From Bugula neritina (Eukaryota > Bryozoa > Gymnolaemata > Cheilostomatida > Bugulidae), in assembly GCA_964035545.1 (NCBI GenBank), contig OZ037766.1, positions 4,999,722-5,063,721 on the forward strand: 64,000 nt of DNA. Direction: 5' to 3'. A program made the position numbers and the translations under genes. The notes below the pieces were generated by a model, which made no database searches, had not been told where the DNA came from, and was given only the letters and a program-made list of their open reading frames with translations. Positions 59,501 to 62,500 of this stretch are shown in pieces. Numbering within the stretch: position 1 is the first letter of the stretch; every line of letters begins with the position of its first letter.

Positions 59501-62500
59501 ACCAAACCAGTAAGAAGCACACAAAAAACTGTTAAAAGTTACCAAAAAAAAGGATAGTAAAAGTAGAATAAAAGAGTTTAGTGTTACATCATGGTTATTA
59601 TCGAGTTTATTATAGAGTGATAACACGTAGAAGTAGGTAAGAGGTGAACAGTACGTACAGTAAGTAGGTCTTACCACTAAATGCAATGCTTAGCTGCACA
59701 TAAACAAAATATGTATCAATAAATAAAAACAGAGTTCCATACCTATAACGCCTTAGCAATAAAACAAATCTAGAAAAAATAGTAAATTACAGTCATGGGG
59801 CTTAGTAATTGAAAAAAGCAGATGGTTCTTTGTATTACAACTGCAACATATAAATTTTGCATCATCAGTTTAATTTCTTTGGAAAAATAGTTTTCTTATA
59901 AAAGAGAATTTAACTTACATGTTGAAATACGCGTGAATGTGTGAGAAATGGAGCTGCTACATGATTACAAAGGAAGCACGAATCTATAGACATATAATAA
60001 CCAGGTGTGTAAACTAGAGTGTAGTTCTTGAAGATAGACTGGTCACACGCCCTTTTCCACTGAAAATATACAGTGAATACAGTTATATGAATACAGAGGG
60101 GATATGGATGTATTCCACAGCAAGAAATATTTAATCAACACGACATAATAAATACAAACTATGGTAAACTTTACCAACTCACCTGACCAGTGTGAGTATC
60201 TTTTATAGAACTGGATACAACTGTAGCACCAACACTTATCATATGATTTACTAATACATTTAACTGAATATCTTCAGTAAATTTTGTCATACTTCTTCCA
60301 ACATAAACATATTCTGTGGAGACTCTCTTTAGTAAATTTTTCCACACATCTGTTTCCTTGTAGGAATGAAAACCTCTAAAATCGAGTTACTAGTTTAAAG
60401 TATAAAACATCAAATAAACTCATATGAATTTAGCTAAATAACAAATAACAGTTAGATATCAATGTATCAGTATTATAGATCTGATTTACTAAAATTGTAT
60501 CTTTAGATATAAAGCTTTTCTAATGCATTGTAAGCCGAATTCTTTGTTATCAGAGCTACTGCGACTAGCAAGCTGACTGACAAGCAGCCATCTATATATA
60601 TATATATATATATATATATATATATATATATATATATATATATATATATATATATATATATATATATATATATATATATATATATATATATATATATATA
60701 TATATATATATATATATATATATATATATATATATATTGCGAAGGTGTGGGCCATGGTACTCTGTTCTGTGCTGATGAGGGGACAAACCCCGAAACAGCT
60801 GCTGTCCACAGATTGAGGTATTATGCTCTCACTTAATGCTCAGCAATGACATTCAGTGATTGAGCTCTCTCACCATGGTCACAAACTCAAGCTGCTAGCA
60901 TTTTGCAAGGCTCGTGACTCCTAGGTGACCCCTAGAGTCACTTGAGCTCTCTGGCTTGAGTTTACACACCTTTTAAATATGCTTTAGTAGAAACATAAGT
61001 TTCTACTATTGCGAAGGTGTGGGCCAAGGTACTCTGTTCTGTGCTGATGAGGGGACAAACCCCGAAACAGCTGCTGTCCACAGATTGAGGTATATATATA
61101 TATATATATATAACTGTTTTGAGCTGCAACTTCCCTTCAATTTTACTTACAATAGGTAATGTGCAGCACGTACCACCCAAGAATAACTGTGGATATCATT
61201 ACAACACATCATACTTTCATCTATAAACACTCACTAGTAAATGTAACTTACAAGAGGGCAATAATTTCGGTACAACATCTACTTACTAACATCAACTTAT
61301 CAATCAAATAAAGAATTTTCGTTGCCTACCCCCTCATGTAGACTATTACGTATACTCATATTAGTACACTCATCACATGTATTTTCATAACAAGAGTTTT
61401 CCAACAACAAAAACAACTATTACTCATGCTAACTATAACCAATTTTTAATAGAAAAATAGGTTTTAAAAAATATTATTGATTATATGGTTTCCACACTTG
61501 TTGACTCAAGCTTGTGTCAAAATGGGGGTGTGAATAAAAATATTGTGGGATGTGTGAGAATGTGTATTATTATTATTATTAGTGCTTTAGCTCAACTTGC
61601 CTTGGCTTGTAATATAAAATTTGCACATTACTCCTTCCTTGATACTGAACTGAAAGCGCGTGTGGAACACCAATTATAATGTGTATCTCAGGATATATAT
61701 TCACTGTATCCTGTATTATTCTTTCTACCATCTCCTCAGTAGCATCGGTCATGTGGACAAAATTATAGACTACAGTAGTGAGTGTGTAGAAGTTACTGGA
61801 GTCCAGTACAGAGTCTAAAATGATAGATTGTAGATTGTAGAGCAAAGTTTGGTTATTTAGATCTCTCACATTCAATAGAACATATAGCAGCAAACCTTTA
61901 CAAAAATATTTTAGATTACATACATTTGCTTCATTCTAATTATACCAAAACTAGGTATGAAAAACATGAATGAGAAAGCAACCTACATAAGCAATAAATG
62001 GCAAAATATAAATAAATATTATCAATAATAATAAATAATAATAATAATAATAATAATAATAATAAATAATAATAATAATAAATAATAATAATAAATAATA
62101 ATATTAATAAATATATTTATTATGGCTGTACTTTAGTGGATAGATAGAACATTCCATCTAAAGGTTACACCAGCTATAAGCTGTGATACAACCAATAATA
62201 ATAAATATATTTATTATGGCTGTACTTTAGAAAATAAAAGAAAGGACATACCTCCAACGCCAGATTTATACTTCACATACAGCTTGTTTGTAGAGAGTTT
62301 AAGGAGATCTTCAATTAGTTTTCTCACCTAAAAACAACCAACAATAGCTTTACTGTGTGTACATATTCCAACAATTATTTAATCCAAAAGCAATACATCA
62401 TTTCTGATAACTCACTCTAATGTAGATTTACCACCACAAACCTTATAAAAAGCAGAATTGAAACTTTTCTTTTCTTTATAAGAATGCGTGTGATGGCTGA

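Follow-up and report, generated by a model that had tools for sequence, protein, structure and literature searches.

How did two identical hammerhead ribozymes come to lie, pointing the same way, in what reads as an intron of a protein-coding gene of the bryozoan Bugula neritina, and by what route are such copies made? The window analysed here is a stretch of 64,000 nucleotides of that genome, spanning C2:4999722-5063721, and the features that bear on the question are as follows.

60593..60736, no strand: upstream (TA)72 tract, presumed target microsatellite
60735..61093, + strand: retrozyme array, with its 3′ end at unit position 84 and its leftmost 5′ start at unit position 270
60760..60817, + strand: hammerhead 1, type I, with cleavage predicted after 60806
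61032..61089, + strand: hammerhead 2, identical to hammerhead 1, with cleavage predicted after 61078
60807..61078, + strand: predicted 272-nt RNA from double cleavage, strongly self-paired (z −6.39)
61091..61112, no strand: downstream (TA)11 tract, putative priming site of reverse transcription
60174..60386, − strand: host gene exon beside the array (LicD-type, fourth copy), with counterparts in the three other copies
61582..61935, − strand: host gene exon on the array's other side, with counterparts in the three other copies
32076-37552, 39390-44240, 46061-52765 and 56548-62591, − strand: four tandem copies of the LicD-type gene, with the same exon order by exon comparison

The hammerhead pair and its host gene

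The array spans 359 bp of the + strand, equivalent to 1.32 units of 272 bp joined head-to-tail, and consequently contains one 87-bp stretch twice (60735-60821 and 61007-61093; 99% identical, spacing 272); the first TAT of the array (60735 on) possibly belongs to the TA tract rather than to the unit. The sole mismatch between the two repeats (ATGG/AAGG) is upstream of the hammerheads and outside the core, and the hammerheads themselves are identical. Each can be read directly from the letters as CTGATGA-GGGG-ACAAA-CCCC-GAAA-CAG-CTG-CTG-TC, with TCTGTG before and CACAGA after. Stem I has an inner part of 6 bp (TCTGTG/CACAGA) followed by an internal loop and three outer pairs, stem II has 4 bp closed by a 5-nt loop (GGGG-ACAAA-CCCC), and stem III has 4 bp, including an A-U pair, closed by a 3-nt loop. 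Cleavage is predicted after GUC, and the sequence over the predicted junction, ...GCTGTC|CACAGATT..., is the same as that found at tandem junctions in the genome. The original prediction had called two complete, identical hammerheads in one orientation (CTGATGA, GAAA, GTC, and stems I, II and III of 6, 4 and 4 bp), with cleavage points 272 bp apart, in a direct repeat bordered by TA tracts; each of these points is confirmed, and the repeat, then given as 84 bp, is real and measures 87 bp.

The retrozyme has no coding capacity, the open frames in the ORF list that cover the array being short and running through the TA tract. It has no LTRs beyond the partial repeat, the GC content of the unit is 0.46, and no Pol III B-box patterns are present in the 272-bp unit. 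The (TA)n tracts are the class of insertion target and not part of the retrozyme.

The array sits in a predicted intron of the fourth copy of the minus-strand LicD-type gene, a placement that follows from the two flanking exons, which have matches, likewise ordered, in the window's three other copies of the gene. Exon 57890-58159 matches the LicD domain (PF04991, E 7.6e-6), and the ribozymes lie antisense to the host gene; the intron location and antisense orientation that had been proposed are thus upheld by the conservation of the flanking exons. The array-bearing intron is about 1.2 kb long, compared to 0.3–0.6 kb in the other copies. Two places were considered as clean empty sites and rejected: the intron of copy 1, which is without the entire segment of about 0.92 kb around the array, and a TA tract of copy 3, whose surrounding sequence is non-homologous.

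The predicted 272-nt RNA greatly exceeds its dinucleotide shuffles in stability (z −6.39, with none of 200 as good), while the 84-nt repeat alone folds no better than shuffles (z 0.04). The hammerhead fold has −16.3 kcal/mol and is not the minimum-energy fold, as the same 68 nt can reach −19.1 kcal/mol. Among 13 aligned copies there is no double-sided change that would indicate covariation, the copies being too alike.

A dispersed retrozyme family

The genome searched was the tzBugNeri2.1 assembly of B. neritina (215,847,546 bases in 295 contigs), reported in the available text of its description as nine chromosomes, 216.00 Mb and 320 scaffolds (PMC11480708). The exact core pattern CTGATGAGN{4,12}CGAAAC has 408 matches (212+196), compared to 0+1 for the reversed control pattern. 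DNA searches with the 272-bp unit gave at least 125 matches (40 of 678 candidates scored), and those with a second-subfamily unit at least 132 (40 of 674 scored), so that further genomic copies with a conserved core, which the original prediction had expected, do exist; they are dispersed and fall into two subfamilies. The first 40 loci fetched contain 86 full hammerheads, with 17 partial ones left out of the count; the core is complete in 74 of the 86, and 68 retain the core together with inner stem I, stem II and stem III. Judged by these comparisons, the hammerhead pair is not a chance occurrence. A few cores with other stem II sequences (C1:4239124, C1:14381576 and C1:17177805) are either decayed copies or members of another family.

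One result went against the original prediction, which had proposed a search with the Rfam hammerhead models as a check: no Rfam model reached its gathering score in the window or in the loci of five further copies. In a relaxed search both copies score 15.2 bits with RAGATH-1 hammerhead (E 6.3), well short of its threshold of 56.3. Given 408 genomic occurrences of the exact core pattern and one of the control, we do not take the silence of Rfam as a refutation, and judge it to be outweighed by the genome-wide copies.

Metazoan non-LTR retrozymes, as described by Cervera and de la Peña (2020, PMC7229834), have type I hammerheads, RNAs of 170–400 nt, tandem organization and low GC content. The Bugula family resembles them in its type I hammerhead, its unit of a few hundred base pairs (272) in head-to-tail order, its dispersal, its lack of LTRs, its GC content under 50% (0.46) and the coexistence of Penelope-like elements (PMC7229834), and it fits this class on the features that can be compared by sequence. 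The differences are that the available portions of that account, which name no bryozoan, describe neither a (TA)n target nor a constant 3′ end nor whole-lap arrays, and that circular RNA was shown for the retrozymes reported there (PMC7229834) and is a prediction for the Bugula family. An autonomous Penelope-like element, looked for as a companion of animal retrozymes, is present in the genome.

Two comparisons with other groups are less close. Plant LTR retrozymes, according to the sections available (PMC7761336), carry type III hammerheads, LTRs with a primer binding site, 4-bp target duplications and units of 600–800 nt; the Bugula element is like them in being non-autonomous and in having hammerhead pairs that would release an RNA unit (PMC7761336), and unlike them in its type I topology, its lack of LTRs beyond the partial repeat and its TA target. 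The hammerhead satellite and W-element repeats of Schistosoma mansoni likewise carry hammerhead sequences, as far as the accessible text describes them; in contrast to the satellite blocks, the Bugula copies are short dispersed arrays with insertion junctions (PMC8490949).

The locus had been said to match the layout of both animal retrozymes and the ends of Penelope-like elements. The first half of this statement holds, with type I hammerheads, head-to-tail units of about 270 bp, hundreds of dispersed cores, no ORF and a Penelope-type element in the same genome. The second half does not, as the retrozyme and the 3′ region of the local Penelope-like element share no sequence or motif above shuffles, and the array is for this reason not regarded as a Penelope element end. 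With somewhat better than even confidence, we regard the element as one genomic copy of a non-autonomous animal (non-LTR) retrozyme family of B. neritina with a presumed RNA-circle life cycle, and the family probably spreads as RNA circles. A literature search, with most subscription journals outside its scope, found nothing on retrozymes in bryozoans or on hammerhead ribozymes in Bugula. The retrozyme class itself is already known, and what is new here is how the copies are built.

A small, highly self-paired RNA with a hammerhead also recalls viroid-like agents, and the copies could in principle be integrated forms of an independently replicating RNA of that kind. We consider this barely plausible: no minus-strand ribozyme is listed by Rfam at E up to 10, the exact core pattern has no match in the viral contigs searched, and hundreds of genomic copies in two subfamilies obey common insertion rules.

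Insertion junctions and the template

The ends of the copies were compared at 60 loci (L021-L060 from the first unit search and L115-L134 from the second-subfamily search), cut into 66 arrays; because these are the best-scoring places, well-kept copies are over-represented among them. Several patterns emerge. First, the 3′ end is at unit position 84 in 57 of the 66 arrays, which places it 15 nt beyond the point of cleavage (GAGGTAT or GAGATAT). The script called nine exceptions, of which six end at 73–83 (79, 79, 79, 83, 76 and 73), and the others at 78 in the rearranged locus L028, at 44 without TA in L116, and at 39 in L121. Secondly, the 5′ ends are scattered over 43 different unit positions. 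Thirdly, TA flanks (20-mers with at least 80% TA/AT steps) are present on the right of 57 arrays and on the left of 44, compared to 20 of 8643 20-mers of the window; target duplications are not visible inside (TA)n. Fourthly, a clean 8-nt TA flank is present at 42 left joints, 36 of which share 1–4 nt with the TA, and the mean overlap of unit and TA at these 42 joints is 1.69 nt, compared to 0.34 nt for the null; if one joint is taken per start position (27 joints) the mean is 1.30 nt, and in both cases none of 20000 simulations gave a value as high. All but four of the arrays (62/66) are longer than one unit.

Target-primed reverse transcription is known to leave a shared 3′ end, 5′ ends at varying positions and a microhomologous 5′ joint, and the array ends fit such a process, putatively starting from one site on a circular or an uncleaved multimeric RNA. 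They are difficult to reconcile with a passive satellite, in which tandem repeats would be spread by DNA recombination and the hammerhead would be a relic. Such satellites do have precedent, hammerhead satellites being known in newts and schistosomes from the available parts of two reports (PMC7229834; PMC8490949); nonetheless, the constant 3′ end, the scattered 5′ ends, the TA target, the microhomology joints and the retention of the core in most full hammerheads make this origin very improbable.

At L047 (C9:2738301-2739436) and L028 (C5:9208046-9208762) retrozyme arrays of opposite orientation meet tail-to-tail at one TA tract, and L028 also contains short retrozyme pieces arranged head-to-head, both from unit position 17.

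Because the cDNA would cross the cleavage site, its template should be either circular or uncleaved, and the choice between these turns on the make-up of the arrays. Units within an array diverge by 1.0%, compared to 2.1% between arrays of the same subfamily (83 and 2974 comparisons, 45 arrays). In the same 45 arrays, the array-private variants covered by at least two units occur in all units in 16 cases, in some units in 4, and in one unit in 52. Nine arrays are of whole-lap length (1.97–3.99 units, corresponding to 2, 3 or 4 laps), their start coinciding with the 3′-end position. Ten of the 66 starts fall in those 4 nt, for which the uniform expectation is 4.7e-8, with the reservations that the bin was chosen post hoc, that it includes L121, which is without the usual 3′ end, and that TA microhomology is abundant at the site as well. 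The subfamilies are mixed within arrays L034 and L038, which is not obtainable from one circle.

These observations can be set against a linear multimer, on which the reverse transcriptase would start at position 84 of a unit in an uncleaved array transcript and drop off upstream, with no circle needed. The cleavage site would be crossed just as on a circle, the mixed arrays L034 and L038 and the 52 single-unit private variants suit a multimer of unlike units, and a Penelope element of Anolis used uncleaved RNA in vitro, as stated in the part of the report available (PMC11167929). Against it stand the 16 private variants that occur in all units of their array and the nine arrays of 2, 3 or 4 units that begin at the 3′-end position, and we consider a linear template unlikely. 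The composition of the arrays points, with good probability, to an RNA circle as the template.

A candidate helper

The genome was searched for a partner with a Penelope-type reverse transcriptase fragment, and the autonomous Penelope-type element that the original prediction had suggested looking for is there: the query matches 61 places at 29–43% identity (best E 4.2e-28), open frames of 734 and 777 aa can be read as they stand (777 aa being the longest), and RVT_1 is present in two real translations. A C-terminal VYKITC/YVGETGR stretch in these translations is read as a putative GIY-YIG domain, for which Pfam gave no confirmation; the AlphaFold model of the C-terminus has a mean pLDDT of 34 (two sequences), and no PDB relative of the protein was found by sequence. 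GIY-YIG, used as a Penelope probe, matches one place in the genome, which we take to be an SLX1-type host exon and hence reject as a Penelope copy, and BLASTP gives no match between the Penelope C-terminus and this exon.

The 3′ ends of the Penelope-like element are informative, as 18 of the 20 fetched abut a TA tract. They come in two versions about 30 nt apart, of which 10 of the 18 are short and 8 tailed; of the other two, L108 is tailed but lacks a clean tract, and in L111 other sequence intervenes. Neighbouring copies within 5 kb are arranged head-to-head in 13 of 14 pairs (from a search with at least 44 matches, 40 of 408 candidates scored), with their 3′ ends outward and a spacing of 280–2063 bp, an arrangement that would fit priming from both sides of one break. 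Head-to-head is also described as the most frequent arrangement for Penelope inverted repeats, and a 5′ joint with microhomology is recorded for an Adineta Penelope copy, in the accessible text of PMC3846280. For the Anolis element, the available portion of PMC11167929 reports reverse transcription starting internally at two adjacent sites, an AT-rich target, and a tail between the starts. Target class and internal start are thus common to the Bugula Penelope-like element and the retrozyme. At L101 (C3:18516014-18516414) the 3′ ends of a Penelope copy and a retrozyme are opposed over one TA tract.

A CTGAAGA...GAAA motif is found in 16 of 20 Penelope-like loci, slightly upstream of the start codon (ATG) of the 777-aa frame. 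To the eye it resembles a minimal hammerhead; this interpretation is our own, because an Rfam run on one copy of the Penelope-like element reports no hammerhead at E values up to 5. The retrozyme thus resembles Penelope-like elements in having a hammerhead, an internal start of reverse transcription, an AT-rich target, 5′-joint microhomology, 5′ truncation and partial tandems, insofar as these are described in the available parts of PMC11167929 and PMC3846280. It differs in that it lacks an ORF and any similarity to the local 3′ region, its hammerhead has a stem III of 4 bp, and its copies do not regularly pair head-to-head, an arrangement seen at one retrozyme locus only (L028) and frequent in the Penelope-like element. 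Since it has no ORF, and so encodes neither a reverse transcriptase nor a GIY-YIG endonuclease, it is not a member of the Penelope-like elements.

As a control we aligned the LINE family of L063 with 29 other reverse transcriptase loci, of which 22 aligned and 7 did not. A TA tract directly follows the shared sequence in none of the 22 (L066 has one about 30 nt further on); 21 end in CAAA-type repeats and L070 stops before the 3′ end. Two copies of a second LINE family also have no TA tract at their 3′ ends. Because the TA target is common to the retrozyme and the Penelope-like element while the LINE control is without it, we propose that the Penelope-like element quite likely mobilizes the retrozyme in trans. 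Another enzyme, such as that of another LINE family with a preference for TA, carries some weight as the mover, given that RVT_1 has at least 150 matches (of 2124 candidates) and there are thus many reverse transcriptase families, and that the 3′ ends compared come from a single LINE family, plus two copies from a second. The CAAA-type ends of the first family, the same want of TA in the second, and the regular contact of the Penelope-like element with TA tracts make such an enzyme the less likely mover.

With the Penelope-like element as the likeliest enzyme, having a minimal hammerhead-like motif and the same kind of insertion target, a cycle can be sketched. Transcripts of an array would cut themselves at each hammerhead, at the predicted cleavage sites, and the 272-nt monomer would be circularized by a host RNA ligase. 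The reverse transcriptase would nick a (TA)n tract, and the free TA end would prime cDNA synthesis at UAU, 15 nt beyond the point where the cleaved ends had been religated. The enzyme would then travel the circle for anything from less than one to about five laps, and the end of the cDNA would be joined to TA through 1–3 nt of microhomology. The arrays might in this way be footprints of rolling-circle target-primed reverse transcription, with a Penelope-like nick at (TA)n, a single UAU start, whole laps and closure by TA microhomology; we offer this combined scheme tentatively, rating it slightly below an even chance. If it is true, a single genome would reveal by what helper, into what target and from what start site an animal retrozyme is copied.

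The matter is of interest because, according to the available text of PMC7229834, animal retrozymes make abundant RNA circles and the enzyme that returns them to DNA is an open candidate; primed circular RNA templates are proposed there, and Penelope-like elements are called a strong candidate helper. The insertion anatomy of the Bugula family is evidence on this open mechanistic step of retrozyme copying, and with a common (TA)n target, a common start site and whole-lap lengths, the questions of helper and circular template become directly testable in one animal.

Other repeats were noted in passing. Positions 10980-19056 of the window have the appearance of a Gypsy-type LTR retrotransposon, with GC content up to 0.59 and a 1994-aa gag-pol-like open frame (12335-18319); the stretches on either side of the frame are probably LTRs, as their frames share a long peptide. 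At L111 (C1:26817057-26817457), sequence that reads by eye like the gag of this element replaces the expected Penelope 3′ end, and the insertion of a Gypsy relative there therefore seems likely. Window positions 54478-54605 hold a G-rich 19-bp tandem repeat of 6.7 copies with 96% matches.
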